A program made the position numbers and the translations under genes. This document shows, piece by piece, positions 1,454-16,117 of a DNA stretch of 34,159 bases. Every line of letters begins with the position of its first letter. Position 1 is the stretch's first letter. The DNA is taken from the NCBI GenBank assembly GCA_905478975.1, contig CAJQKW010000046.1, forward strand, positions 1-34,159. Reading direction: 5' to 3'. This stretch comes from an uncultured Pseudomonadales bacterium (lineage in GTDB: Bacteria > Pseudomonadota > Gammaproteobacteria > Pseudomonadales > Porticoccaceae). The notes beneath the pieces were generated by a model. It was not told the origin of the DNA and made no database searches. It was given only the letters and a program-made list of their open reading frames with translations.

Positions 1454-2236
1454 TTAGTCCAGCTTGAGATCCATCTGATACTGAAACAGCTCGGTGTTAT
1501 AGAGCGCCAGCAGATAGTCTACCAACTCTTCGTGGTCGCCATTTTGCTTGTAGGAGCGCCGCACTAAGCTGAGTAGCGGTGCCCCAGGTTCTATGTTGAG
1601 GTGTTTGGCGATAATCGGGCTGGCGGCGATGGCGCCGATGGTCTGCTTGATATGGCTGACATGCATGCCGCTCTCGCGAAAGTATTTGTGTCGCGACTCA
1701 TGGATAAAGATATCGCTGTTTTCGGGCGCTTCGACACCGGCACTCCAGCTATCGAAGTAGCCGAATACTCCACCTGCGCGCTCACGGGTTCTGACCAGAT
1801 GGAACAGGGTATGACTACGTTTGAGGGCAAACTCGGCAGCAATACTCTGGGGTGGTTTAATCAGTGCAGATTCCAAAACAGTGGCGGTTGAGCTTTCGGC
1901 AATGCTATCGATCTCTTCGAGAACGCCTATCATCGGTGCCTGCACGGGCTTCGGTGAATATTTGTAGATGATATGGGTGCCCTTGCCGCGAGCCCTTTCC
2001 ACCAGCTGTTCTACAGCCAGTTCATTGACTGCGCGCTTGGCGGTAATTCGCGATACTTCAAATAGCTCTGCCAGCTCTTGCTCACTGGGCAGTTTGTCAC
2101 CGTGGTGCAGAGAGCCGTCGAGAATAAAGCTTTTGATCAGGCTGTAGAGCTGGTGGTAGAGGGGCACAGGCAGGTCGGCAGAAACATGACGGCGCAGATT
2201 CTGACTGAAAAGAGTTGCGTTCAATGGATTGCTCAT
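1454..2236 (-). CDS. GntR-family transcriptional regulator, HutC/UTRA subfamily
   Basis: A 260-residue regulator. The N-terminal GntR winged helix-turn-helix spans about residues 24-90, with the signature GDKLPSEQELAELFEVSRIT and the wing RGKGTHI. A UTRA ligand-binding domain (about 105-250) follows, the type that usually binds a small acidic, sugar or amide metabolite. The gene is transcribed away from the GST/CoA-transferase/hydantoinase cluster with a 182-bp gap between them. An 18-bp palindrome of GntR-operator type lies in that gap. The likely role is ligand-responsive repression of the divergent catabolic cluster and of itself. The family call is firm; target and ligand are inferred. 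Confidence 0.9.
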   Translation of the reverse strand: MSNPLNATLFSQNLRRHVSADLPVPLYHQLYSLIKSFILDGSLHHGDKLPSEQELAELFEVSRITAKRAVNELAVEQLVERARGKGTHIIYKYSPKPVQAPMIGVLEEIDSIAESSTATVLESALIKPPQSIAAEFALKRSHTLFHLVRTRERAGGVFGYFDSWSAGVEAPENSDIFIHESRHKYFRESGMHVSHIKQTIGAIAASPIIAKHLNIEPGAPLLSLVRRSYKQNGDHEELVDYLLALYNTELFQYQMDLKLD

Positions 2237-2304: not shown

Positions 2305-2322
2305 TGGTATAACAATATACCA
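2305..2322. promoter_or_regulatory. Candidate GntR/HutC operator
   Basis: TGGTATA-ACAA-TATACCA is a perfect 7+7 bp inverted repeat in the divergent gap between the GntR gene and the GST gene. AT-rich GGTATA/TATACC half-sites fit HutC-subfamily operators (established for the family). I could not identify a convincing -35/-10 pair for either gene, so the geometry relative to the promoters is unknown. Confidence 0.6.
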
Positions 2323-2418: not shown

Positions 2419-3117
2419 ATGAAGCTGTATAGCCTAGATCACTCTCCTTATTCAACACGGATTCGCGCGCAAATTCGGCACAAGAATTTGCCAATTGTCT
2501 GTGTCAGCCCACCACAATTAAAGTCGGCGTTGTTACATAGTATTTTTCCTTTTGGTCAACTGCCAGTGTTATCTCTGGATGACGGTGAGCTGCTCGGTGA
2601 ATCGACGGTGATTATGAATTACCTCGAGGAAGTCTATTCCCAGCGCGCTCTGCGCGGTGAATCGGCGATAGAAAAGGCCCGTGCCAATATGATGGTGCGC
2701 TGGTCCGATACTCATTTGGGCCCATTGATCCGCGATGTGCTGAGTGCTGATTGTGCTGATGTCATTGGCAGTGCCGAGCTACAGGTGGTGGCGGAGTTGC
2801 GCAAGATTGATGCCTTGGTTGAACGACAGCTTGATTATCGCGAGCGGGATATTCACATCGGTGATTTCTGTGCCGTGGTCTCAATTGCCTACACTCAGGC
2901 GCTGTTTGAACTCTGCGCCGCCACATCACTGCTGGATCAGTTTCCCCGCCTGTTAGCCTGGTGGAAGTTCAGTTTAGAGCGAAATTCGTCGCTTAATGAG
3001 TCGGTTATTGAAATGCTCGAGGCGATGAAAATTTGGTTGCCTGTCGCGGATCATCGAGACAGCTACCTTAGTGGGGGACTGCTTGAGACGTTGTCGGCTC
3101 GCCAGGAGGCCTTATGA
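2419..3117 (+). CDS. Glutathione S-transferase family protein
   Basis: A 232-residue cytosolic GST-fold protein. The N-terminal thioredoxin-like domain (1-80) has the active-site region LDHSPYSTRIR (Ser9 or Ser12 candidate), the cis-Pro element FGQLPVL (about 46-52) and the glutathione gamma-glutamyl-binding motif ESTVIMNYLEE (about 61-71). An all-helical C-terminal domain follows. It is the first gene of the plus-strand cluster and overlaps the next gene by 4 bp (ATGA), so it is translationally coupled. It could be a glutathione-dependent isomerase or dehalogenase-like step, or a detoxification accessory; the substrate cannot be told. The Shine-Dalgarno sequence is weak. Confidence 0.85.
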   Translation: MKLYSLDHSPYSTRIRAQIRHKNLPIVCVSPPQLKSALLHSIFPFGQLPVLSLDDGELLGESTVIMNYLEEVYSQRALRGESAIEKARANMMVRWSDTHLGPLIRDVLSADCADVIGSAELQVVAELRKIDALVERQLDYRERDIHIGDFCAVVSIAYTQALFELCAATSLLDQFPRLLAWWKFSLERNSSLNESVIEMLEAMKIWLPVADHRDSYLSGGLLETLSARQEAL

Positions 3118-4313
3118 GTCAGCCTTTGGGTGGTGTCCGCGTCCTCGATTTGACCCATATGTTATCTGGCCCCTATGGCAGCATGATTTTGGCTGATCTG
3201 GGTGCCGAGACGATTAAGGTGGAACCCCTGGCTGGGGAGGGCACTCGCAAGCTCTTGGCCACCGATCCCAATAATTCTCTCGACGGTATGGGGGCTTATT
3301 ACATTACCCTGAACCGCAATAAGAAGAGTGTTGCGGTGGATCTCAAGACTGAAGAGGGTTTGGCCCTGTTTAAAGATTTGGTGGTCAATGTGGATGTGGT
3401 GATCAGCAATTTTGGCGCCGGTGTTCCCGAGCGGCTGGGTATTGATTACGACTCTTTAAGTGCGGTTAATCCGCGAATTATAACCTGCACCGTGTCTGGC
3501 TTTGGTTCCGATGGCCCCGGCAGCAGGCGCCCGGCCTTTGATCAGGTGGCCCAGGCTATGGGTGGGGGTATGTCGATTACTGGGTCGGATTCAGAGCATA
3601 AGGTTCGCGCGGGTATTCCTATAGGGGATCTTGGCGGTGGCATGTTTGGGGTGATGGGAATTTTAGCGGCGCTCTATGAACGGGAGGGCAGCGGCCAGGG
3701 GCAGCATGTGGATATCTCTATGCTGGACTGTCAGATTTCTATGCTCAACTATATGGCGACCATGCATTTTCTCTCGGGGGAAGATCCCTATCCCATAGGC
3801 AATAGTCACTTTGTCCATGTGCCCTATGACACCTTCGCTTGCTCCGACGGGTCAATCGTTATTGCGGTGATTACGGATAACTTCTGGCACAACCTTAAGC
3901 AGGTCATCAGCTGTCCTGAGTTTGATAACGGCAAATATGATACTCAACCGGGTCGCTGGGAAGATCGCGAAATAATCAATGCCAAGCTCAATCAGTTGTT
4001 GGCGGTGAATAGCTGTGCCCATTGGTTGGCCCTATTTGAAGCTAAGCGCATTCCCTGTGCGCCGGTTAACAGTCTCAGTCAGGCTCTGGCAGACATTCAG
4101 GTGTTGCATCGGAATATGGTGATCGATTTAAAACACCCCAATGGCAATTCCACCAAGGGGCCAGGTAACCCGATTAAATTGTCTCGCAGCAGTGATCAGG
4201 TATTCACCGCAGCACCCACACTGGGGCAGCACACCGATGAAATAATGACCCAACTGCTCAATTTGAGCGTAGAGCAAATAGAGCAGATGAAAGTGCAGGG
4301 GATTATTAAATAA
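3114..4313 (+). CDS. CaiB/BaiF family (family III) CoA-transferase
   Basis: A 399-residue cytoplasmic enzyme that moves CoA from a donor such as succinyl-CoA or acetyl-CoA to a carboxylate. Family landmarks are GGVRVLDLTHMLSGPYG at the N-terminus, DLGAETIKVEP (28-38), LNRNKKSVAVDLK (66-78), SGFGSDGPGSRRPAFDQVAQAMGG (from 128) and GIPIGDLGGGMFG (167-179). Asp172 aligns with the catalytic aspartate of formyl-CoA transferase. Length is normal for the family. It overlaps the GST gene by 4 bp, and its TAA overlaps the next gene's ATG in TAATG, so three genes form one tight operon. The following lyase-family gene suggests that the product is a CoA ester that is then cleaved. Confidence 0.93.
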   Translation: MSQPLGGVRVLDLTHMLSGPYGSMILADLGAETIKVEPLAGEGTRKLLATDPNNSLDGMGAYYITLNRNKKSVAVDLKTEEGLALFKDLVVNVDVVISNFGAGVPERLGIDYDSLSAVNPRIITCTVSGFGSDGPGSRRPAFDQVAQAMGGGMSITGSDSEHKVRAGIPIGDLGGGMFGVMGILAALYEREGSGQGQHVDISMLDCQISMLNYMATMHFLSGEDPYPIGNSHFVHVPYDTFACSDGSIVIAVITDNFWHNLKQVISCPEFDNGKYDTQPGRWEDREIINAKLNQLLAVNSCAHWLALFEAKRIPCAPVNSLSQALADIQVLHRNMVIDLKHPNGNSTKGPGNPIKLSRSSDQVFTAAPTLGQHTDEIMTQLLNLSVEQIEQMKVQGIIK

Positions 4314-5227
4314 TGCTAGAGCGCGTTGTTATTACCGATGTGGGACCACGGGATGGCCTACAGAACCAGCAAAAAACACTCTCGATAGCAGAGCGTATTG
4401 AGCTAGTGCGGGCAATTGCAGCCGCTGGCGTGCCGCAGATTGAGGTGGGCAGTTTTGTCTCGCCAAGAGCGGTTCCTGCCATGGCTGGCACCGATCAGGT
4501 TTTTGCCGCCTTAGAGGCCGCTAATTTTACCACGCCAACCATTGCCCTGATTCCAAATATGAAGGGCTATGAGTTAGCCCGTGCCGCTGGCGCCAAAACT
4601 GTCACCATGGTGCTCTATGCCAGTGATGGTATGGCGCAAAAGAATGCCGCCATGAGTATGGCTGAGGCGGAAGTGATCACCTTAGACATTCTTACATTAG
4701 CCAAGCATGATGGAATAGAGGTTATCGCCACTATAGCCGTGGCCTTTGAGTGCCCATTTGATGGGCCGACGGATCCCGCCGTTGTAGAAACTATAGCGGC
4801 GAAGTTCATTGCCGCTGGTGCTGATCAACTGGTATTGGCTGACACCATAGGGGCTGCCCATCCCCAGCAGGTGCGTGAATTAACCGCGGCACTGGTGGCT
4901 AGCCATGGTGCTGAACAGCTTGGCTGCCACTTTCACGATACTCGAGCCATGGGCTTGGCCAATGTCTATGCCGCAGTAGAGTCGGGTATTCGGCGCTTCG
5001 ACAGTTCTATTGCCGGATTGGGAGGCTGTCCTTTTGCCCCTGGGGCATCGGGGAATGTGGCCACTGATGATATTGCCATGATGTTGCAGCAGATGGGGTT
5101 TGATACTGGAATTGATTTGGATAAACTGATGAATGCCTCAGATTTGGCGCAAAGCTTAACTGGCACAGCGCCCGGAGGTAGGGCAAAAGCTTGGTTGCAG
5201 GGGTATTTGGCAAAGCTTGTCAGTTAA
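4313..5227 (+). CDS. HMG-CoA lyase family (DRE-TIM) acyl-CoA lyase
   Basis: A 304-residue TIM-barrel lyase that retro-cleaves a 3-hydroxyacyl-CoA into an acyl-CoA plus a keto acid, ketone or aldehyde. The full catalytic set of HMG-CoA lyase is present at equivalent spacing: Arg13/Asp14 in DVGPRDGLQNQ, Glu44 in EVGSFVSP, Asp177, metal-binding His206 and His208 in HFHDT, Cys239 in GLGGCPF and Asn248 in GASGN. The segment after HFHDT reads RAMGLANVY, whereas classical HMG-CoA lyase has YGQALANT, so the substrate may differ. It could be a genuine leucine-pathway HMG-CoA lyase. Being fused by TAATG overlap to the CoA-transferase, and not in the liu operon, argues for a dedicated substrate. Confidence 0.9.
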   Translation: MLERVVITDVGPRDGLQNQQKTLSIAERIELVRAIAAAGVPQIEVGSFVSPRAVPAMAGTDQVFAALEAANFTTPTIALIPNMKGYELARAAGAKTVTMVLYASDGMAQKNAAMSMAEAEVITLDILTLAKHDGIEVIATIAVAFECPFDGPTDPAVVETIAAKFIAAGADQLVLADTIGAAHPQQVRELTAALVASHGAEQLGCHFHDTRAMGLANVYAAVESGIRRFDSSIAGLGGCPFAPGASGNVATDDIAMMLQQMGFDTGIDLDKLMNASDLAQSLTGTAPGGRAKAWLQGYLAKLVS

Positions 5228-5266
5228 AAGCTTTCTAGTTAAAAGCTTTCTAGCTAAAAGCTAGAC
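5222..5266. repeat. 15-bp tandem repeat, two perfect copies and one degenerate
   Basis: AGTTAAAAGCTTTCT at 5222-5236 and 5237-5251, then a degraded copy at 5252-5266. The first copy contains the stop codon of the lyase gene. The unit is nearly the same as that of the array downstream of ppiD: 5221-5237 matches 26641-26657 at 16 of 17 positions. It lies in the 82-bp gap between the lyase gene and hyuA. Confidence 0.9.
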
Positions 5267-5309
5267 AAGAAAAAAAATTAAAAAAAACAAAAAATGCTCG
5301 GAGAAGAAG

Positions 5310-7406
5310 ATGAGTTATAGGTTAGGGGTAGATGTAGGGGGAACGTTCACAGACCTTCTTCTAATTAATGAAGGCACAGGGGAGACTCACACGGCCAAGG
5401 TGCCGTCCACGCCGGAGGATTCCTCCATCGGTGTACTCAATGGTATTGCCCGCATCTGCGACGAGTCTGGAGTCAATCCAGCGGATGTTAGCAGAGTGAT
5501 GCACGGCACGACTGTCGCCACCAATGCGGTTTTAACCGGACGCGGTGCAAAAGTCGGTCTGGTGACTACGGCGGGCTATGAAGATACTTTGCAGGTGGCG
5601 CGATCTTTCTGCCCCGGCGGTTTGGGTGGCTGGGTTAGCTTTGTTAAGAAGCCCTTATTAGCCCCTCTCGAATTGACCATTGGTGCCCATGAACGAATGA
5701 GTGCTGATGGCGATGTGGTGAGAGAGTTGGATGAAGATCAGCTGCGTGCCGATCTGACAACACTGCATGCCACCGGTGAGGTGGAAGCTTTAACCATCTG
5801 CTTTATCAATGCCTATATCAATGGTACCAATGAACAGCGCGCCAGTGAAATTGCCGCTGAGATTTTTACCGATACGCCGATTTCTATCTCCAGTGATGTA
5901 GTGCCGGAGATGCAGGAGTATGAGCGCACCGAAACCACTGTAGTCAATTCCTATGTGCGTCCCGAAGTGGCCAGCTATGTGAGTAATTTGCAGGCGGCTC
6001 TGGACGACAAGATGGGTCCTGATACTCAGCTTTCGATTCTCCGTTCTGACGGCGGTCTGGCTTCAGCTCGAGCTTCCGCGGAGTCACCAGTGAACATGCT
6101 GATGTCTGGTCCTGCTGGGGGTGTCTCTGGAGCGATCTACTTCTGTAGCCGCGCCGGGTATGACAATATTTTGACCTGCGATATGGGTGGAACTTCCACC
6201 GATGTGGCGCTAATACAAAACTCCCGTGCCCGAGTGCGTCGCGAGACCATTGTTGCGGATGTGCGAGTGCGCGCACCCTCAGTAGATGTGCGCACAGTGG
6301 GTGCTGGCGGCGGTTCCATTGCCTTTGTTCCCGAGTTGACCAAAGCATTGCGTGTTGGCCCTGAGTCTGCCGGTGCAGTGCCCGGCCCTGCCTGTTATAT
6401 GAAAGGCGGTGTTCAGCCTACTGTTTGCGATGCCAACGTGGTCTTGGGTTATCTGCCCTCGGATGTGCAGCTTGGCGGCAAGATGGAAATTAATCGCGAA
6501 GCCTCTGTGGCGGCAGTGCAGTCGGTTGCGGATGCTATGGGCATTGATCTGATGGCTGCGGCGGAAGGCATTATCAAAATTGCCAATGAATCGATGTTTG
6601 GCGCTCTGCGTCTGGTATCGGTTGAACAGGGCTACGATCCCCGTGACTTTGCTCTGGTAGGTTTCGGCGGTGCAGGTCCACTGCACGCTAATGCTCTGGG
6701 TGTTCTCACTGATGCCTGGCCGGTGATTATTCCACCTGGTCCCGGTGTGCTTTGTGCCTATGGTGATGCTACCACGCAGGTACAGGATGAAGCGGCACGA
6801 ACCTATCTGACCATGGCCGGTGATCTCAGTGATGAGAAACTGACTGCGGATCTGATGGAGTTGCAGGTAAGGGCTGGTGACGCGCTGTTAAAAGACAATA
6901 TTCCCGCCTCAGAACATGAGATCTCCTATCAGGCTGATCTGCGTTATGCGGGACAGGCTTTCCAAATCACTATCGACTTTACCGAAGCCGAACTGAAAGA
7001 GAAGGGCGTTGCGCTATTAACCGGTCAGTTTGATGCGGAGCACGAGCAGCTATTTACCTTTAAGTTGGATGATGGACACGAGATTTTGATGATTCGTGCT
7101 CTAGCTAAGGCCAAGGCCAAAGCCATTGCCGAGCGCAAGATCGGCCAGACCGGTATGAGTCTCGAAGAGTGCAAAATTGCCAATAGCCGTTTCTATTACG
7201 AAGGCGACTGGTACGACTCGACTATTTACGATCGCAATAAGCTCAGCACTGGGTTGGACGTTTCGGGTCCGGCGATTGTCGGTGAGATGGACTCTACTAC
7301 CGTAGTGTTACCCGGCTATGTTGCCACGGTAGATAAGGTCGGCAATCTGCTTATTAATCCAGACACTACAGCCACGCACTCTTTAAACCAACAGGGGAGT
7401 AAATAA
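5310..7406 (+). CDS. hyuA: Hydantoinase/oxoprolinase family protein, subunit A (HyuA-like)
   Basis: A 698-residue ATP-binding subunit of the family that includes N-methylhydantoinase, 5-oxoprolinase, caprolactamase and acetone/acetophenone carboxylases. The N-terminal actin-like phosphate-binding motif is DVGGTFTD (8-15), then HGTTVATNAVLTGRGAK (65-81). Downstream are TCDMGGTSTDVAL, the glycine loop VGAGGGSIAF, GPACYMKGG and GFGGAGPLHA, all family signatures. A Shine-Dalgarno GGAGAAG precedes the ATG. hyuB follows after 2 bp, and together they match the length of fused oxoprolinases (about 1,300 residues). The region RSFCPGGLGGWVSF (99-112) differs from the common RQNRP-type segment, so substrate transfer from known members is unsafe. 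It is either an ATP-dependent amide-ring hydrolase or an ATP-dependent carboxylase. Confidence 0.92.
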   Translation: MSYRLGVDVGGTFTDLLLINEGTGETHTAKVPSTPEDSSIGVLNGIARICDESGVNPADVSRVMHGTTVATNAVLTGRGAKVGLVTTAGYEDTLQVARSFCPGGLGGWVSFVKKPLLAPLELTIGAHERMSADGDVVRELDEDQLRADLTTLHATGEVEALTICFINAYINGTNEQRASEIAAEIFTDTPISISSDVVPEMQEYERTETTVVNSYVRPEVASYVSNLQAALDDKMGPDTQLSILRSDGGLASARASAESPVNMLMSGPAGGVSGAIYFCSRAGYDNILTCDMGGTSTDVALIQNSRARVRRETIVADVRVRAPSVDVRTVGAGGGSIAFVPELTKALRVGPESAGAVPGPACYMKGGVQPTVCDANVVLGYLPSDVQLGGKMEINREASVAAVQSVADAMGIDLMAAAEGIIKIANESMFGALRLVSVEQGYDPRDFALVGFGGAGPLHANALGVLTDAWPVIIPPGPGVLCAYGDATTQVQDEAARTYLTMAGDLSDEKLTADLMELQVRAGDALLKDNIPASEHEISYQADLRYAGQAFQITIDFTEAELKEKGVALLTGQFDAEHEQLFTFKLDDGHEILMIRALAKAKAKAIAERKIGQTGMSLEECKIANSRFYYEGDWYDSTIYDRNKLSTGLDVSGPAIVGEMDSTTVVLPGYVATVDKVGNLLINPDTTATHSLNQQGSK

Positions 7407-7408
7407 TC

Positions 7409-9292
7409 ATGACCGCAAGACTATTAGAAACTAACCATGATCCCCTAAAGCGTATTGATGTAGATGGTGTCACCGTCGATATTATTGAGAATGCTCTGCG
7501 CAATGCTCGTGAAGAGATGGACGCGGTGCTGTTTAGAACGGCCATGTCTCCGGGTATCCGCGAACAGGGTGACTGCTTCCCGATGATCGCCAATAAAGAA
7601 GGCAAGATGGTCGTGGGCCAGTTCGGTTCCTTTATCGGACCCTTTTTAGAAGCCTATGACGAAGAGATCGAAGAGGGGGATATTATCCTTACCAACGATC
7701 CCTATATGTGCAATGCCGCAGTCTCTCACCTGCCGGATTGGGTGGTGTTGGTGCCAATCTTTAAAGATGGCCGCCATATAGCCTGGTCGGCGATGTTTGG
7801 CCATATGTCGGATAACGGCGGTATGGTGCCGGGATCCATTCCTATTCAGGCGACGACAATCTTCCAGGAAGGTATTCGTATTCCCCCCACCAAGCTGTAT
7901 AAAAAAGGGGTGTTGCAGAGCGATCTGCTGGAACTGATTCTGCATAACGTGCGCACGCCTCAGTGGAACCGTTTTGATCTGAACGCATTGGTTGCCGCCT
8001 GTAATACTGCTGCCAAGCGCTGCGTGGAACTAGCCGTTCGCTTTGGCGACGATGTGCTGTTCTCGACCATGGATATTATGTTACAGCGCAACTATGAAGC
8101 CATGAAACATATTATCGGTATGTTTATCCCTGAAGAGCCCCGCGAGTTTGAAGACTATATCTGCGATGACGGCATGGGCATGGGTCCCTACAAAATTAAG
8201 TGCACCATGTGGCGTGAGGGAGAGAAGGCAATCTTTGATTTTGCCGGCACCGATCCCCAGGCCCAGAGTTCAGTGAACTTCTTCCTCAACGAAGATATGT
8301 TCAAAATGTTCTTTGGCTCTTTCACCATTAACGTGGTGGATCCGCAGATCGTGTTTAACGATGGTTTCTATGATCTGGTGGATGTGCGCATTCCTCAGGG
8401 CACGCTGTTAAAGCCCAATTATCCTGCGGCACTGTCCGGCAGAACCCACGCTCTGGGTCGTATCTTTGATGTGCTCGGTGCTCTATTGGGTATGGGCGCA
8501 CCAGAGATGATGCTGAACGCGGCGGGCTTCTCCGATTCGCCACACCTGTTCTTCTCGGGTTATGACAGCCGTGAAGGCAAGGGCAATGAGTGGTTCCAGC
8601 TGTTCCAAATTGGTTTCGGTGGGGTGCCCGGTCGCCCGGTGGGTGATGGGCCCGATGGACACAGTTTGTGGCCCGGGTTTACCAATGTGCCGAATGAATT
8701 TATTGAGTCCTATTTTCCGCTGCGTATCGAGCGCTATGAAACCATTGCCGATTCCGGCGGTGCCGGTTTGCACCGTGGCGGCAATGGTTTGAGTGTGGCC
8801 TATCGCTTCCTCTGTGACGGCGATATTGGTATTCACGACGATCGCTGGCTGACCTACCCCTGGGGTGTGCTCGGGGGTGAAACCGGACTCCGTTCGACCA
8901 AGAAGTTAGTCCGCGTGGATGGCTCTGAAGAGTCGCTGCCGGCGAAGGTGGAAGGCATCAAGGTGAAGACCGGCGATGTGCTCTATTTCAATACCTGGGG
9001 TGGCGGTGGCTGGGGCGATCCCTTTGCCCGGGATCCTGAATTGGTGCGCCAGGATGTTGTGCGACGACTGGTTTCTGTGGAAGGCGCCAAACGTTACGGA
9101 GTGGTTATAGCGACAGATGCGACAGTTGATCAGGCGGCCACAGAAACCCTGCGTGCTGAGTTGATTGCAGCGCGCGGCGAGAACAGCGCGCTATTTAACT
9201 TTGGTGGCGATCTAGAAGATATTCGCAGTCGGTGTGAGGCGGAGACTAATCTGTCAGCGCCGGTGAAGCCGACGTTTGTGGGGGCAAATTAA
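7409..9292 (+). CDS. hyuB: Hydantoinase/oxoprolinase family protein, subunit B (HyuB-like)
   Basis: A 627-residue partner of the A subunit. Family features in order: DGVTVDIIENALRNAREEMD near the N-terminus, RTAMSPGIREQGDC (about 43-56), GDIILTNDPYMCNAAVSHLPD (from about 89; the family's NDP...HLPD metal-site region), GHMSDNGGMVPG, LSGRTHALGRIFDVLG and the glycine-rich end GGGGWGDPFARDPE. Its Shine-Dalgarno GGGGAG lies inside the last codons of hyuA, so the subunits are translationally coupled. The usual GGxHLPD glycines are replaced by CNAAVSHLPD, marking a divergent branch. Substrate unknown. Confidence 0.9.
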   Translation: MTARLLETNHDPLKRIDVDGVTVDIIENALRNAREEMDAVLFRTAMSPGIREQGDCFPMIANKEGKMVVGQFGSFIGPFLEAYDEEIEEGDIILTNDPYMCNAAVSHLPDWVVLVPIFKDGRHIAWSAMFGHMSDNGGMVPGSIPIQATTIFQEGIRIPPTKLYKKGVLQSDLLELILHNVRTPQWNRFDLNALVAACNTAAKRCVELAVRFGDDVLFSTMDIMLQRNYEAMKHIIGMFIPEEPREFEDYICDDGMGMGPYKIKCTMWREGEKAIFDFAGTDPQAQSSVNFFLNEDMFKMFFGSFTINVVDPQIVFNDGFYDLVDVRIPQGTLLKPNYPAALSGRTHALGRIFDVLGALLGMGAPEMMLNAAGFSDSPHLFFSGYDSREGKGNEWFQLFQIGFGGVPGRPVGDGPDGHSLWPGFTNVPNEFIESYFPLRIERYETIADSGGAGLHRGGNGLSVAYRFLCDGDIGIHDDRWLTYPWGVLGGETGLRSTKKLVRVDGSEESLPAKVEGIKVKTGDVLYFNTWGGGGWGDPFARDPELVRQDVVRRLVSVEGAKRYGVVIATDATVDQAATETLRAELIAARGENSALFNFGGDLEDIRSRCEAETNLSAPVKPTFVGAN

Positions 9293-9367
9293 TTAATCTA
9301 AATGCAGTAAAAATACAATTAATAAAATAATAGCAATAAAACTAAAAAATGGATGAGGGGAAATATT

Positions 9368-11899
9368 ATGAAAGCAATTAACAGTAGAAATGTTATGGCA
9401 ATGGCGATATTGGCCAGCATAGCAACCACCTCGGTGGCAGAAATCACTATCGAAGAAGTTGTGGTTTCGGCGCGAAAGCGTGCGGAAAATCTTCAGGAAG
9501 TGCCTATTGCAGTAACCGCCTTTACCGCATCTCAAATTGAGAGTGCCGGTATCCAGCGTCCAGCTGACTTTATTAGCCTGATGCCCAATGTGACCATGGT
9601 TGACTCCGCTAATGTGGGTGATACGCAGGTCAGTATTCGCGGTATTGTTTCAACCCGTGATGCGGAATCCACCTTTGCCTATGTGGTCGATGGCGTGCTG
9701 GTTACCAACCCCAACGGCTTTAACGAAGAGCTGATGGATGTGAGTCAGATCGAAGTGCTTAAAGGCCCTCAGGGTGCGCTCTATGGACGCAACGCAGTGG
9801 CTGGTGCCATTATTGTCACCACTAACCGCCCCGACGAAGAGTTTGAAGGCAAGGTTAAAGTGGGTGCCGGTAATAATGGCTCTAAGAATGCCAGTTTAAC
9901 CCTAAGCGGTGGTTTGGCTGAGGGTGTGCTGGGTCGTGTCAGTGTCAGTCAGCGTGAGACCGATGGTCACTACAGCAATGCGCTGACTGGTGCCAAGTCT
10001 GTTGATTTTATGGAAGATACCACGGTTCGCGGGCGTCTGATCTGGGATGTTAATGAGGAGTTGTCCTTGGATTTCCGTGCCGGAATGAGTGAAGTCAGTG
10101 GCGGTGCAATCAACTTTAATGCGGTATTTGCGATTCCAGCATTTGCGGCAGGTTTCGGACCTTCGTTCTTCAAAGATGTTAACGATCATGAGTTTATCTT
10201 TTCGAACAATGTTCCCGGTGAAAATGAGCAGGAAACCACTGAGTTTTCTATGAAAGCAGATTGGGATCGAGATGGTGTTGATGTCACCGCAATCCTCAGC
10301 TACAGCGATCTGGAAGAGTATTTGCTGTCCGATGGTACCAGTGCAACGTTCTACGGTTATGAATTAACCGATGCCTGTCAGTCAGATCGCGCGACATTGA
10401 ATAATACTCCGGCCGGTCTCGGTGGTGCAGATCGCACTGATTTGTTCGGCGATTTCTTTGGTCCATTCGGTGTATTCCCTGGAAATAGTGGTGCTGATCC
10501 CGACTTTACCGGTATCTATGGCCCCTACACTCCCACTGCCTGTGACGGTTATCAGTATCAGGAACGCAATCAGTCAGATACCAGTCTGGAAATTCGTCTG
10601 ACTTCAGATGATGATTCAGATATTAGCTGGATCGCCGGTGTCTATGCCGCTGAGATTGAGCGTGAAGTTGTGGTCGCCTATGGTGCCGATACAGGTAATG
10701 GCTTCTTGCGCCAGGGTTATGTTGCCCCAACTGGGCCCAACCCAACGGACCTAATGTTCAGTGATCAGTTTGATACCTCAGTTGTGGCGATATTTGGTCA
10801 GCTTGAGTTTGATATTAGCGATGATATGGAAATAGCCGTCGCTGGACGCTATGACCGTGAAGAGCGCGATGTCAGAAATCAGGTGCCAAATGAAGCTGGG
10901 TCAGGTCTGAATATCAATTCCTCTGGTTCAATTAATCCCGCGTTTGCTGGCAATCCAAATGGTATTCCCAAGCGAAGTGCGACCTTTAGTCAATTTCAGC
11001 CCAAGGTTACCTGGAGTTGGAATGCTGCCGAAGATCTCAATCTCTATGCTAGTTGGGGTGTTGGTTTCCGCAGTGGTGGCTTTAACTCTATAGGCAGTGA
11101 AGCGCTGTTAGATCTCTGGTATGGCGACACCTGCCCATCATTCGTTCCTACTTGCGGCGATCCAGGTGTAGCTGTGGATGCCAATTTGAGTGTCAGCGAT
11201 GAGTACAAGAAAGAAGTCTCTACGAGCTTTGAGTTCGGTAGCAAGATGGAATTCTTCGACAACCGTTTGCGGGTTAATGCCGCAGTGTTCCAAACTGAAG
11301 TTGAAGACAACCAGTTCTTTGAATTCTATGCCGGTCCCTTTGGTTTGATGCGAGTTGTGACAACCATTGATGAGCTAGAGATCCAAGGTTTTGAAATGGA
11401 CTTTAACGCAGTGATTACCGAAAATCTGTCGTTGTTTGGTGGTGCAGGATTCTTGGATAGTGAAATTATCCAGAATGATCACCGTCCGCTCTCAGAAGGT
11501 AATGAAGCGCCACAGGCACCAGATCGTACTTACAACCTGGGTGCACAGTTCGAGATGGCGGTGAGTAATACTGTCGAGATGACTGCACGTTTGGATTGGC
11601 AGTATGTTGGTGAGATGGCGTTCCACACCTTGCAGGGCGAAGCTACTCCGACCATTTGGCAGGTGTTTAACGGTCCTGGTTTGACTCAGGATATGAGCAA
11701 AGCCAAGCGTGATGCCTATGACACGCTCAATGCGCGTATCTCCTTTGATGCGGAAAACTGGGGCGTGACTATCTGGGGTCGCAATGTCACTGACGAAAAG
11801 TATCTGGAAGAGATTATTCCAGCGCCTGAATTTGGTGGTTCATTTGTCCACCCAGGTGCCAAGGATTCTTACGGCATTGACTTTAACTACCGTTTCTAA
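9368..11899 (+). CDS. TonB-dependent outer-membrane receptor
   Basis: An 843-residue ligand-gated outer-membrane channel. I choose ATG 9368 and not the ATG at 9353, because GAGGGG (9355-9360) is well placed for it and it yields a clean signal peptide (MKAINSRNVMAMAILASIA...SVA, about 24 residues). A TonB box-like EEVVVSARKR follows at once. The plug domain carries PIAVTAFTASQIESAG, VSIRGI, VVDGVLV and IEVLKGPQGALYGRNAVAGAI. A long beta-barrel follows and ends in an aromatic residue (DFNYRF), as outer-membrane proteins do. It follows hyuB by 75 bp and is closed by a strong terminator, which suggests it imports the substrate of the cluster. There is no siderophore biosynthesis nearby. Confidence 0.93.
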   Translation: MKAINSRNVMAMAILASIATTSVAEITIEEVVVSARKRAENLQEVPIAVTAFTASQIESAGIQRPADFISLMPNVTMVDSANVGDTQVSIRGIVSTRDAESTFAYVVDGVLVTNPNGFNEELMDVSQIEVLKGPQGALYGRNAVAGAIIVTTNRPDEEFEGKVKVGAGNNGSKNASLTLSGGLAEGVLGRVSVSQRETDGHYSNALTGAKSVDFMEDTTVRGRLIWDVNEELSLDFRAGMSEVSGGAINFNAVFAIPAFAAGFGPSFFKDVNDHEFIFSNNVPGENEQETTEFSMKADWDRDGVDVTAILSYSDLEEYLLSDGTSATFYGYELTDACQSDRATLNNTPAGLGGADRTDLFGDFFGPFGVFPGNSGADPDFTGIYGPYTPTACDGYQYQERNQSDTSLEIRLTSDDDSDISWIAGVYAAEIEREVVVAYGADTGNGFLRQGYVAPTGPNPTDLMFSDQFDTSVVAIFGQLEFDISDDMEIAVAGRYDREERDVRNQVPNEAGSGLNINSSGSINPAFAGNPNGIPKRSATFSQFQPKVTWSWNAAEDLNLYASWGVGFRSGGFNSIGSEALLDLWYGDTCPSFVPTCGDPGVAVDANLSVSDEYKKEVSTSFEFGSKMEFFDNRLRVNAAVFQTEVEDNQFFEFYAGPFGLMRVVTTIDELEIQGFEMDFNAVITENLSLFGGAGFLDSEIIQNDHRPLSEGNEAPQAPDRTYNLGAQFEMAVSNTVEMTARLDWQYVGEMAFHTLQGEATPTIWQVFNGPGLTQDMSKAKRDAYDTLNARISFDAENWGVTIWGRNVTDEKYLEEIIPAPEFGGSFVHPGAKDSYGIDFNYRF

Positions 11900-11917
11900 A
11901 ATAGCGTAGTATCAATA

Positions 11918-11960
11918 GCGGGCTCTGCTTCTTGTTATGAGAAGCAGAGCCCGCTTTTTT
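11918..11960 (+). terminator. Strong rho-independent terminator after the TonB receptor
   Basis: Perfect 15-bp stem: 11918-11932 pairs with 11940-11954, with a 7-nt loop TGTTATG, followed by six T residues (11955-11960). It ends the GST-to-receptor transcription unit and separates it from the next hydrolase gene. Confidence 0.95.
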
Positions 11961-11977
11961 ACGATTAAAAAACACTG

Positions 11978-12607
11978 ATGAGAATGGCTATGACCTCGAA
12001 TGATCTGCTGCAAAATGCTCTCGGCCTAACCGCCAGCCCGGCTCTGCTATTGGTGGATATGATCAATGGGTTTACCGATTCAGCTTGCGCTCTGGGAAGT
12101 GACTGTCCCGAGGTGGTGGCGGCCAATGTACAGCTGCTCGAGGCTTTTCGGGCTCTGGGTCTACCGGTATTTTTCACCACAGTGGTTTACCGCAATGATC
12201 AGCAGGCCAAAGTGTTTCGTCAGAAAGTACCGGCGCTAAACGTTTTGCAGCCCGACAGTCACTGGGTAAAAGTTGATTCGGCATTAGAGCCGCTGGATGG
12301 CGAGCCGGTGATAGAGAAACAGTGGGCCAGTGCTTTTTTTGCTACGGATCTCGACCAGCAGCTCTCGGTTCTGGGAGTCGATTCGATAGTTGTGACAGGT
12401 TTGACCACCAGTGGCTGTGTGCGTGCCTCGGCGGTGGATGCTTTACAGAATGATTATCAGGTAGTGATTGCGGAAGAGGCTGTGGGGGATAGAAACCCTG
12501 AGGCCCACCGTGCCAATCTATTTGACTTGAATGCTAAATATACCGATGTGTTACCGGTTGCGCAGGTGCTGAGTCAATTGACAGCACTCTGCGGTGGCAA
12601 GGGTTAG
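11978..12607 (+). CDS. Isochorismatase-superfamily cysteine hydrolase, N-carbamoylsarcosine amidohydrolase-like
   Basis: A 209-residue cytoplasmic amidohydrolase-type protein. The superfamily triad is visible: Asp27 in LLVDMINGF, Lys114 in PVIEKQWASAF and Cys147 in GLTTSGCVRASA, preceded by the cis-peptide-type VVTGLTTSG. The tail EAVGDRNPEAHRANLFDLNAKYTDV (from about 167) is typical of the N-carbamoylsarcosine amidase-like branch and not of nicotinamidases or true isochorismatases. Known members release ammonia and CO2 from N-carbamoyl amino acids, the product type made by ATP-dependent hydantoinases such as HyuAB. Start alternatives are Met3 (11984) or Met5 (11990); none has a clear Shine-Dalgarno. 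It lies just after the terminator, so it needs its own promoter or read-through. Confidence 0.82.
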   Translation: MRMAMTSNDLLQNALGLTASPALLLVDMINGFTDSACALGSDCPEVVAANVQLLEAFRALGLPVFFTTVVYRNDQQAKVFRQKVPALNVLQPDSHWVKVDSALEPLDGEPVIEKQWASAFFATDLDQQLSVLGVDSIVVTGLTTSGCVRASAVDALQNDYQVVIAEEAVGDRNPEAHRANLFDLNAKYTDVLPVAQVLSQLTALCGGKG

Positions 12608-12639: not shown

Positions 12640-13122
12640 CTATTTAAGAGCTGCGTATTTACCGCGATTAAAGATCAGTGGCTCTAGACCATTGTCTCTA
12701 AACTCAATCACGCGGCCGACCAAAATAATATGGTCGCCGCCTTCATATTGGTTCTCAATCTGACATTCAAAGCAGGCACTGTAGTGGGGCAGAATGGGCA
12801 CGCCCGCTAAGCCTTCAGTACATTCCAGATCAGCAAACTTATCCGCACCGCTTTTAGCAAAACGATTGGACATAGCTTCTTGGTCGGCCGCGAGCACGTG
12901 AATGGCAAAAGACTTTGCACCGATAAAATCATCAAAACAGTTGGCGTCCCGAGCGACACTCCAGAGCACCAGTGCTGGGTCCAGAGACACTGAGTTAAAG
13001 CTGTTGGCGGTCATGCCGACCTTCTGACCATCTTTGCCCAGTGCGGTGATCACGGTGATACCGGTGGCGAAACTGCCCAGTGCATTGCGGAAGTCGAGGG
13101 TTTGCTGTTTTTTATCAGACAT
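12640..13122 (-). CDS. Flavin reductase family protein (HpaC/NtaB-like, FMN-binding split barrel)
   Basis: A 160-residue protein of the flavin reductase (DIM6/NTAB) family. These small enzymes supply reduced FMN or FAD to a partner monooxygenase. Visible motifs: RNALGSFATGITVIT (12-26), GMTANSFNSVSLDPALVLWSV (from about 36; the flavin-binding region), SFAIHVLAADQ and the C-terminal GDHIILVGRVIEF...PLIFNRGKYAAL. Length is typical. It is convergent with the hydrolase gene (32 bp apart) and downstream of fadH on the same strand. No flavin-dependent oxygenase lies in the window, so the partner is unknown. Short 13-bp repeats lie just before its start codon. Confidence 0.87.
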   Translation of the reverse strand: MSDKKQQTLDFRNALGSFATGITVITALGKDGQKVGMTANSFNSVSLDPALVLWSVARDANCFDDFIGAKSFAIHVLAADQEAMSNRFAKSGADKFADLECTEGLAGVPILPHYSACFECQIENQYEGGDHIILVGRVIEFRDNGLEPLIFNRGKYAALK

Positions 13123-13130
13123 AGTTTTCT

Positions 13131-13156
13131 ATTAAGTTCTTCTAGTAAGTTCTTCT
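13131..13156. repeat. 13-bp tandem duplication before the flavin reductase gene
   Basis: ATTAAGTTCTTCT (13131-13143) and AGTAAGTTCTTCT (13144-13156) differ at one base, and flanking sequence on both sides continues the pattern partially. It lies in the 5' leader of the flavin reductase gene, 8 bp from its start codon. Confidence 0.8.
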
Positions 13157-13283
13157 ATTAGGCTATTCGTTGAAAGCTGCTGGTTGCTGATTGTGGCGTT
13201 AGAAGTCAGCAACGGTGCGCCGTTTAAATTAGCGCGCATGATCCGTTGCTTGACTCTTTGTTGCAAGGACTATTCCCAGTTAG

Positions 13284-15395
<2,112 letters not shown>

Positions 15396-15418
15396 CTAAT
15401 AGCGGATATACGAAAGTT

Positions 15419-15444
15419 TTTGCACTTTGGTTGATCTGTGCAAA
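15419..15444. promoter_or_regulatory. Inverted repeat in the fadH/tetR divergent region
   Basis: TTTGCAC (15419-15425) and GTGCAAA (15438-15444) with a 12-bp spacer. It is one of three inverted repeats packed between 15419 and 15489, consistent with regulator binding between the divergent genes. The binding protein is unknown. Confidence 0.4.
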
Positions 15445-15461
15445 GAGATTAATGATGCATT

Positions 15462-15490
15462 TTGACACTGTCAAGATGTATTGCTACATT
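15462..15490 (+). promoter_or_regulatory. tetR promoter with overlapping palindromes
   Basis: A consensus TTGACA (15462-15467) and TACATT (15485-15490) with an ideal 17-bp spacer. Two inverted repeats overlie it: TTGACA-C-TGTCAA (15462-15474) on the -35 and ATGTA-TTGC-TACAT (15476-15489) on the -10. Transcription would start at about 15497, which is the A of the chosen ATG, predicting a leaderless or nearly leaderless mRNA. Autoregulation by the TetR protein is the simplest reading. Confidence 0.6.
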
Positions 15491-15496
15491 GGCCCC

Positions 15497-16117
15497 ATGA
15501 ATCCAACTGCATCACAGAGCACGGCTCGTCCAAGTTACCATCACGGTGACCTCCGCCAGGTGTTACTGCGCTCGGCAAAGCAGCTGATAGCCGAGGCTGG
15601 AATAGAGAATTTGTCCCTGCGTCGATTGGCTGAAAGGGCAGGGGTTTCACGCACTGCGCCCTATCACCACTTCTCAGATAAAAATGATTTGCTCTGCGCC
15701 ATTGCTGCGGCAGGCTTTCGTCGTCGCCATCAGACTGCTGCGGCGGAGTTTGATGATGCAGGCAAGACAATGCTGGAAAAATTTCACGCCTATATCAATG
15801 GCTATATGCAGTTTGCCGTGGATAATCCTGAAGAGTATGAGCTGATGTTTGGGCGCAGTATCTGGAAACAGCAGAACAGCACCGAAGAGCTCCGTGATGT
15901 CGCCTACCCCTGTTTTCAGCATCAGGTGGATATGATGCGCTGCTGGCAGGATTGCGGGGTAATCTCTGGTGATAATCCCCTGCGTACGGCTCAGGTTATC
16001 TGGGGCGCGCTGCACGGCATTGCCAAGTTATTTATTGATGGTATCTACACCGACACCGCGCAAATTGAAGAAGTTACTCACTGTGCGATCAATATGTTCG
16101 TTATCAGCAAGATCTAG
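15497..16117 (+). CDS. TetR/AcrR-family transcriptional regulator
   Basis: A 206-residue regulator. The TetR helix-turn-helix is at about residues 14-60: YHHGDLRQVLLRSAKQLIAE, then LSLRRLAERAGVSRTAPYHHF. A helical ligand domain follows (about 75-206), with FHAYINGYMQFAVDNPEEYELMFG and a C-terminal WGALHGIAKLFIDG typical of AcrR-type proteins. The frame is open further upstream, with ATGs at 15452 and 15455 preceded by AAAGAG. I prefer 15497 because the strong promoter lies in between and family members usually have only a short tail before YHHGDL. The upstream start is the main alternative. Divergence from fadH suggests control of fatty-acid oxidation; this is inferred. Confidence 0.87.
   Translation: MNPTASQSTARPSYHHGDLRQVLLRSAKQLIAEAGIENLSLRRLAERAGVSRTAPYHHFSDKNDLLCAIAAAGFRRRHQTAAAEFDDAGKTMLEKFHAYINGYMQFAVDNPEEYELMFGRSIWKQQNSTEELRDVAYPCFQHQVDMMRCWQDCGVISGDNPLRTAQVIWGALHGIAKLFIDGIYTDTAQIEEVTHCAINMFVISKI

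Follow-up and report, generated by a model that had tools for sequence, protein, structure and literature searches.

A co-inherited set of regulator, receptor, ring-opening and CoA-ester genes in SAR92-type bacteria is a candidate cassette for catabolism of a nitrogen-ring compound

We have analysed a stretch of 34,159 nucleotides from an uncultured Pseudomonadales bacterium (contig CAJQKW010000046.1, positions 1 to 34,159; hereafter the window) and find that it carries, in a SAR92-type genome, a group of genes whose grouping exceeds chance. The group comprises a GntR/HutC-type regulator, a class III CoA-transferase (CoAT), a lyase resembling hydroxymethylglutaryl-CoA (HMG-CoA) lyase (HMGL), the subunits HyuA and HyuB of an ATP-dependent hydantoinase or lactamase, a TonB-dependent receptor and an isochorismatase-fold amidase (Table 1). 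We suggest, with a probability of about 0.48, that these genes form a GntR-controlled catabolic cassette for a nitrogen-ring compound, in which a ring opener, an amidase, a hydratase, a CoA-transferase and a lyase would cooperate. An earlier reading made from the window alone (the sequence-only reading) had proposed an import-plus-degradation unit with its own GntR/HutC regulator and receptor; that proposal survives here in outline, without the GST-fold protein it included and without the single transcript it assumed.

The members of the set are inherited together. Among 35 SAR92 genomes (G000-G034; presence sets read by hand), 20 carry HyuA, and orthologues of the other components track it: CoAT is found in 18 of these 20 and in 1 of the 15 genomes that lack HyuA, HMGL and the amidase each in 19/20 and 1/15, the receptor in 19/20 and 0/15, and the regulator in 17/20 and 0/15 (Fisher p from 5e-9 to 7e-7, which kinship among the genomes and the reading by hand render only indicative). 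The exceptions are G001, G012 and G022 (contig ends), G007, whose regulator reaches only 53% identity, G003, which has a piece of the amidase at a contig edge and no HyuA, and G019, which keeps CoAT and HMGL with HyuA reduced to its first 29-30 codons, has no orthologue of the receptor, amidase or regulator, and looks like the site of a decayed cassette; contig ends account for most of them. Parts of the set standing without the others, the kind of case that the sequence-only reading said would speak against a unit, are rare among these genomes and seen in G019 and G003. We note that the G019 remnant (L109, G019:C4:168000-187000, positions 6131-10265) is flanked by oxidoreductase copies of 130 aa and 380 aa, judged by eye to be the same gene, as though part of a cassette had inserted at this place and a duplication had accompanied it. 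We also note that G022 has two copies of the region (C44 and C75), so that regulator-CoAT-HMGL and the start of HyuA occur twice, and that G016 has two HyuA genes (C19 and C70).

Individual loci give a similar picture. Further loci came from the best 80 of 377 genome contig matches and from 14 HyuB loci (13 other genomes, drawn from a sample of 398 of the phylum). Of 106 loci examined (L022-L127), we kept the 64 in which HyuA is present with over 6 kb to either side and set aside 42 whose flanks were too short or which had no HyuA; the same genome may in some cases be counted twice. In the 6 kb around HyuA these 64 loci hold HyuB (64), HMGL (54), CoAT (50), an amidase (42), a receptor (40), a PrpR-like regulator (14), LeuC (12), LeuD (12), a GntR regulator (8) and a GST (2), where a match to any of several queries per family was counted and the amidases include those of a second module described below (as in L070). 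The co-occurrence that the sequence-only reading asked to be checked is therefore largely present, and the GST, found near HyuA in one further locus (L022) outside the 64, is the member that falls away. As a scale for chance, genome G023 (a single contig of 3.0 Mb) has five CoAT-like and five HMGL-like matches, a density at which about 0.02 of each would be expected per 14 kb. In other lineages the same place is occupied by CoAT/HMGL pairs that share no more than about 30% (CoAT) and 40% (HMGL) identity with those of the window, and the pair has therefore been kept despite divergence. It could be argued that the genes are neighbours by an accident of genome layout in one clade and share no function, as the terminator inside the set and the one SAR92 genome that keeps only CoAT and HMGL might suggest, but largely the same families recur in several gene orders, in other lineages and classes and on plasmids, and sets that are rearranged yet retained contradict this explanation, which we regard as extremely improbable.

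Two further protein types recur beside these genes. A VOC protein resembling methylmalonyl-CoA epimerase lies near HyuA in 9 of the 64 loci (L053, L054, L056, L068, L075, L078, L080, L085 and L091) and could be an epimerase for a CoA intermediate. A family of about 240 aa (cluster c30, for example L101:11618-12349), one member of which has a DUF3108 match below the cut-off, recurs in SAR92, other gammaproteobacterial and plasmid loci.

The cassette appears to have a regulator of its own. The divergent gene, correctly placed by the sequence-only reading, encodes a protein with GntR and UTRA domains that scores 99 bits and does not reach the 220-bit cut-off of the HutC equivalog. Beside it lies a perfect palindrome, TGGTATAACAATATACCA, which that reading overlooked and which is the only mismatch-free occurrence of TGGTATA-N4-TATACCA in the window. 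When up to 2 mismatches of 14 are allowed, all 19 intergenic regions next to minus-strand regulators of at least 60% identity contain a site (the window, source of the pattern, and 18 loci; L110, which has the same site as L035, was left out), and in shuffled controls 0 or 1 of 100 reach such a site. The regulator has an orthologue of at least 64% identity in 19 of 39 SAR92 genomes, and 12 of these 19 hold the exact palindrome, a single time and at a distance of 59-80 bases from the stretch that matches the regulator; it occurs in none of the other genomes, the reversed palindrome occurs in none of the 39, and no such palindrome was found beside more distant paralogous regulators (40-54% identity). 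Because the palindrome is restricted to the regulator's side, with one site per genome, the regulator looks local and dedicated to the cassette, and we predict that it binds the palindrome as its operator.

The sequence-only reading held that the substrate cannot be read from the window, and for the window alone we agree. Sister cassettes, however, may narrow the chemistry. In L115-L117 a PrpR-like regulator, receptor, CoAT, HMGL, HyuA, HyuB, amidase, LeuC and LeuD stand in one stretch (the PrpR_N domain was confirmed at 94 bits both in L116 and in the regulator of L069). Ten of the 64 loci lack both CoAT and HMGL in the 6 kb around HyuA, and LeuC and LeuD are there in eight of them; of the remaining two, L095 has HMGL, CoAT and LeuC further off and L068 has none of these. 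The cassette LeuC is a paralogue, since a further LeuC lies outside the cassette in all six genomes tested. LeuCD, the 3-isopropylmalate dehydratase, acts on cis-dicarboxylates, and a substituted maleate would therefore be a natural product of HyuAB and the amidase. We infer that LeuCD-type hydratases beside HyuAB or the amidase point to a substituted cis-dicarboxylate derived from a cyclic amide or imide.

From the gene families, their co-location, the LeuC paralogues and the catalytic residues we infer a set of reactions and their order. The receptor would import the substrate, perhaps a lactam or imide whose backbone bears a substituent, or a precursor of it, HyuAB would open the cyclic amide with ATP, and the amidase would release the amide nitrogen as ammonia to leave a substituted maleate. 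A LeuCD-type hydratase would add water to give a substituted malate; in the organism of the window this step might fall to the one LeuC found in its genome, or be achieved otherwise. CoAT would then activate the substituted malate, probably from succinyl-CoA, and the lyase would yield acetyl-CoA (or another acyl-CoA) and a 2-oxo acid, which would be pyruvate if the substituent is methyl. That it is methyl, with citraconate, citramalate and pyruvate as intermediates and product, is a further guess.

The ring-opening genes belong to the HyuA/HyuB superfamily (Hydant_A_N, Hydantoinase_A and Hydant_A_C domains in one, Hydantoinase_B in its neighbour). The closest solved structure of HyuA is N-methylhydantoinase (450 bits, followed by 6yra at 401 bits), which HyuB matches at 252 bits. 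The amidase has the fold and the D27, K114, C147 triad of the nicotinate/maleamate group, the triad being invariant in 66 of 66 amidases; it passes no NCBIfam equivalog cut-off, and its closest solved relatives are N-carbamoylsarcosine amidohydrolases (140 bits for 26st, and 119 bits), followed by 3ot4 (107 bits), which together with 3uao we take to be the maleamate amidase NicF. Taken alone, the window amidase leans toward the N-carbamoyl side. The main rival to our interpretation builds on these likenesses: HyuAB would open hydantoin or N-methylhydantoin and the amidase would remove the carbamoyl group to leave an amino acid, with CoAT and HMGL acting on a side chain or in a step of their own. 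Among the plasmid genes of the set, one is indeed annotated as N-carbamoylsarcosine amidohydrolase. However, no aminotransferase, deaminase or sarcosine oxidase was recognised in L115-L117 (from matches and the first 60 residues only), and LeuCD and the lyase pair would have no evident role after an amino acid. We consider the hydantoin route doubtful, if the most serious of the competing explanations.

The creatinine route provides a precedent for this rival, since it pairs an N-methylhydantoinase with an N-carbamoylsarcosine amidohydrolase and so resembles the cassette in its ATP-dependent HyuA/HyuB ring opener and isochorismatase-fold amidase. The cassette differs from it in having CoAT, HMGL, a TonB receptor and, in the sisters, LeuCD, and in that no sarcosine genes were recognised in the window set; creatinine deaminase and sarcosine-use genes were absent from the 20 window genes scanned, and neighbours in other loci were scanned in part. 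NicF shares the fold and the D/K/C triad with the window amidase, which is nevertheless closer to the N-carbamoylsarcosine enzyme, and the 20 window genes scanned include no other gene of the nicotinate/maleamate route, its dioxygenase, deformylase and maleate isomerase among them.

HyuA/HyuB proteins may also be carboxylases, and it is conceivable that HyuAB here carboxylates a ketone (as in the acetone and acetophenone enzymes) and that CoAT and HMGL cleave the branched product, with no cyclic amide involved. The protein superfamily is the same, and HyuA matches the acetophenone carboxylase gamma subunit at 295 bits; the subunit scores of 295 and 129 bits are far below the 1500-bit equivalog cut-off, hydrolases score higher than carboxylases against HyuA (450 and 401 versus 293 and 234 bits among structures), and the amidase and LeuCD would be left unexplained, so that we regard a carboxylase as very unlikely. 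The best NCBIfam match of both subunits is the caprolactamase CapAB (HyuA 535 bits, HyuB 194 bits), yet the equivalog cut-offs of 1000 are not reached, and caprolactam would presumably give no substrate for LeuCD, CoAT or HMGL.

The best NCBIfam matches of CoAT are succinate-glutarate and succinyl-CoA:mesaconate CoA-transferases, both far below cut-off, and it matches structures named succinate-hydroxymethylglutarate CoA-transferase at 250 bits; it is probably of the dicarboxylate type. The lyase passes the cut-off of the HMG-CoA lyase subfamily PRK05692, and R13, D14, H206, H208, C239 and N248, presumably its catalytic and metal-binding residues, are invariant in 81 of 81 aligned lyases, which places it in the HMGL-like superfamily. 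Position 211 is Arg in the window lyase and in all 67 lyases within 4 kb of HyuA, including those of other lineages whose identity is about 40%, and Tyr in all eight LiuE-type lyases (seven of seven SAR92 second lyases and 2ftp of P. aeruginosa). By this residue, a criterion set in this analysis and not a published one, the window lyase is not of the LiuE type. Arg211 fits a substrate other than HMG-CoA, and we propose a branched malyl-CoA. An alternative makes the lyase a true HMG-CoA lyase that, together with CoAT, would break down free 3-hydroxy-3-methylglutarate or a related compound, while HyuAB would act beside them on something else. Both the PRK05692 score and the structural matches of CoAT are as this alternative predicts, and the window's own genome (80% complete) has no full LiuE-type lyase, only a 66-residue piece at a contig end. 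Against this, most other SAR92 genomes searched have a second lyase (38-44% identity to that of the window), the seven that were aligned differ at position 211, and the pair is co-inherited with HyuAB; we judge the alternative unlikely.

Cleavage of a branched malyl-CoA has precedents. Succinyl-CoA:(R)-citramalate CoA-transferase (EC 2.8.3.20) and (R)-citramalyl-CoA lyase (EC 4.1.3.46) link citramalate to acetyl-CoA and pyruvate (PMC8307300). The cassette, with its predicted CoA-transferase and lyase pair, may resemble this route. We take the Chloroflexus (R)-citramalyl-CoA lyase to be HMGL-like, with its gene adjoining that of the transferase, and know of no HyuAB or amidase in that system. 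The itaconate cluster Ict/Ich/Ccl likewise combines a CoA-transferase with a C5-dicarboxyl-CoA lyase (PMC12290011), features that the cassette shares. Itaconate degradation requires an itaconyl-CoA hydratase, which is absent among the ten window genes scanned. Ccl is of the CitE kind, whereas the cassette lyase is of the HMGL kind. An M. tuberculosis enzyme of another family is reported to cleave both citramalyl-CoA and HMG-CoA (PMC6689899), and so C5 and C6 acyl-CoA lyase activities can overlap.

We find that the logic of the cassette (module A) may be repeated, with other ring-opening candidates, in a second module. Module B consists, in parts or whole, of its own amidase, two PuuE-like hydrolases, LeuC/LeuD, CoAT and HMGL, and is present in SAR92 genomes G007, G015, G016, G024 and G033 and in loci L041, L057, L064 and L070. 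Plasmids carry it too: a conjugative one of Acidiphilium multivorum JZ-6, where module A is next to it, one of Sphingomonas JE1, and one of Sphingobium TomTYG65 that also bears HyuAB. In several of these genomes and plasmids it lies near HyuAB. Eight of the 10 plasmid HyuA records among the matches listed (10 of 20) are also among the amidase-B matches listed (20 of 21), and in seven of the eight plasmids with both, among the matches listed, HyuA and amidase-B lie within 45 kb. In the samples of 398 genomes of the phylum amidase-B was found in 7 and HyuB in 14, with both in two (G344, where a single contig carries them at a distance of 22 kb, and G448, whose amidase-B has only 47% identity), and amidase-B is therefore often found without HyuB; there is no HyuA in the Comamonas and Burkholderia plantarii plasmid stretches shown. 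A protein resembling methylisocitrate lyase, scoring below the PrpB cut-off, lies one gene from LeuCD on the Burkholderia plantarii plasmid and adjacent to it on the Sphingobium plasmid, and may provide an alternative alkylmalate cleavage. Nicotinate fermentation uses a LeuCD-like dimethylmaleate hydratase and then dimethylmalate lyase; these two plasmid loci resemble it, whereas the window has CoAT and HMGL instead and no local hydratase. The neighbours of the amidase-LeuCD set in G024 include a ureidoglycolate-lyase-like protein, a molybdenum hydroxylase, a berberine-bridge-type FAD oxidase and a UbiD-type decarboxylase; such enzymes would suit earlier steps that attack an N-heteroaromatic carboxylate.

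Two plasmid settings deserve mention. In Acidiphilium multivorum JZ-6, from activated sludge, modules A and B have type IV secretion genes on one side and several transposase genes on the other (L138/L142; NZ_CP041720.1, ~36-56 kb). On Terrarubrum and Thioclava plasmids (L154, L156), relatives of the module-B amidase lie near an HpaB-like monooxygenase, a flavin reductase, amidases and a protein annotated leucyl aminopeptidase that has no Pfam match; this looks like another N-ring pathway.

Several observations weigh against the nitrogen-ring interpretation that we favour. Its weak point is the hydratase: the window has none locally, only 12 of the 64 loci, and no SAR92 locus among them, have a LeuC in the 6 kb around HyuA, and in the window genome (80% complete) a single LeuC was found, LeuD not having been searched there (G007, G016 and G024 hold one or two more LeuC). 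Amidase and hydratase are also not always together, since six of the eight HyuAB-LeuCD loci without nearby CoAT/HMGL have no amidase within 6 kb, and this slightly lowers the odds of the proposed route. In the amidase tree the window protein is nearer 26st than 3ot4, which favours a hydantoin-type product, and a strong terminator precedes the amidase gene. HyuAB and CoAT score below every equivalog cut-off, and five lyases farther from HyuA (four of them in module B) have Arg at position 211 in three cases and Tyr in two, so that Arg211 marks the HyuA side only and not the whole pathway type. Finally, six of the 40 receptors near HyuA match at less than 40% identity, and the loci are not independent, as the best 80 of 377 matches include many from SAR92. 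We note that, in the same tree, module-A amidases of Acidiphilium and Novosphingobium and those of other classes join 3ot4 on a deep branch. A choice between maleamate and N-carbamoyl substrates from this tree was abandoned, the branches being deep (2.2-2.8 substitutions per site from the window to the solved amidases) and their supports unread.

A bolder possibility, which we regard as distinctly unlikely, is that the cassette forms one branch of a route by which the pyrrole rings that make up tetrapyrroles (bilin, haem or chlorophyll) are degraded. Oxidative breakdown of tetrapyrrole pigments leaves two kinds of substituted maleimide, and modules A and B might each take one kind. The TonB receptor would then import the pigment or its fragments, the two dialkylmaleates, once hydrated and split by a CoA lyase, would yield pyruvate and acyl-CoA, and bacteria with both modules would own one ring-to-acyl-CoA line per maleimide kind. 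Hints in this direction come from the receptor, from the occurrence of the two modules as a pair and from a protein on pJE1 that weakly resembles HapK (35 bits), a member of the prodigiosin gene set; none of them names a tetrapyrrole.

Turning to the locus itself, all eight reading frames of the sequence-only reading, with their coordinates and overlaps, are borne out by our check (GST/CoAT overlap by 4 bases and CoAT/HMGL by 1; HyuA and HyuB are 2 bases apart), and the protein families it named are those given by Pfam. The one strong terminator it described exists, and lies inside the gene set (Table 1), which speaks against a single seven-gene transcript; the amidase is not obviously co-transcribed with the upstream genes. 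The frame of the receptor stands, although its start is probably the later ATG, since GAGGGG lies directly upstream. A sigma-70 promoter scan was uninformative (8 sites versus 16.4 expected). We set aside naming the receptor's ligand from structure, as no solved relative is close (best 75 bits). An adjacent flavin reductase, a 674-aa FMN/FAD reductase and a TetR gene (12640-16117) were rejected as members of the unit because, in 100 mapped loci, they accompany the cassette only in SAR92-type loci and because the reductase, compared by eye, reads as a FadH-type 2,4-dienoyl-CoA reductase. The MerR gene (864-1292) was likewise rejected as the cassette's regulator. The genes around it in other SAR92 loci, judged by eye from the first 260 residues of their products, resemble those for an acyl-CoA dehydrogenase and a carboxylase, and a lyase of 35-43% identity lies further out, so that MerR looks like the regulator of a leucine cluster.

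Table 1. Positions and supporting matches of the cassette and its associated elements in the window
Feature	Position	Strand	Basis
GntR/HutC-type regulator, divergent	1454..2236	-	Pfam GntR 68 bits, UTRA 71.5 bits
Candidate operator TGGTATAACAATATACCA	2305..2322	.	sole exact site in window
GST-fold protein, accessory	2419..3117	+	GST_N_3 53 bits; only N-terminal domain recognised
Class III CoA-transferase (CoAT)	3114..4313	+	Pfam CoA_transf_3 398 bits
HMG-CoA-lyase-like lyase (HMGL), Arg211 behind HxHDT motif	4313..5227	+	PRK05692 subfamily 315 bits, cut-off 246
HyuA, ATP-dependent hydantoinase/lactamase alpha subunit	5310..7406	+	three Pfam HyuA domains
HyuB, hydantoinase B subunit	7409..9292	+	Pfam Hydantoinase_B 473.5 bits
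TonB-dependent outer-membrane receptor	9353..11899 (start probably 9368)	+	Plug and barrel domains
Intrinsic terminator between receptor and amidase	11917..11955	+	18-pair stem, 3-base loop, T-run
Isochorismatase-fold cysteine amidase (N-carbamoylsarcosine amidase / maleamate amidase group)	11978..12607	+	Isochorismatase 143.5 bits

The sequence-only reading did not recognise this combination of genes, and neither did we find a description of it in the open-access literature searched, subscription papers lying mostly outside that search. The enzyme families are all known; the combination appears undescribed and its novelty is unproven. Coastal plankton commonly includes SAR92 and Halieaceae, many of whose TonB receptors have no assigned cargo; a receptor coupled to a degradation pathway of its own, under local regulation, would provide a concrete test case. 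The recurring logic of ring opener, amidase, LeuCD hydratase, CoA-transferase and HMGL lyase, which in some bacteria may be present twice in parallel and partly on conjugative plasmids, would, if our interpretation is correct, also mean that many genes at present labelled hydantoinase, isopropylmalate dehydratase or HMG-CoA lyase could gain a catabolic role, rather than one in biosynthesis or leucine metabolism.

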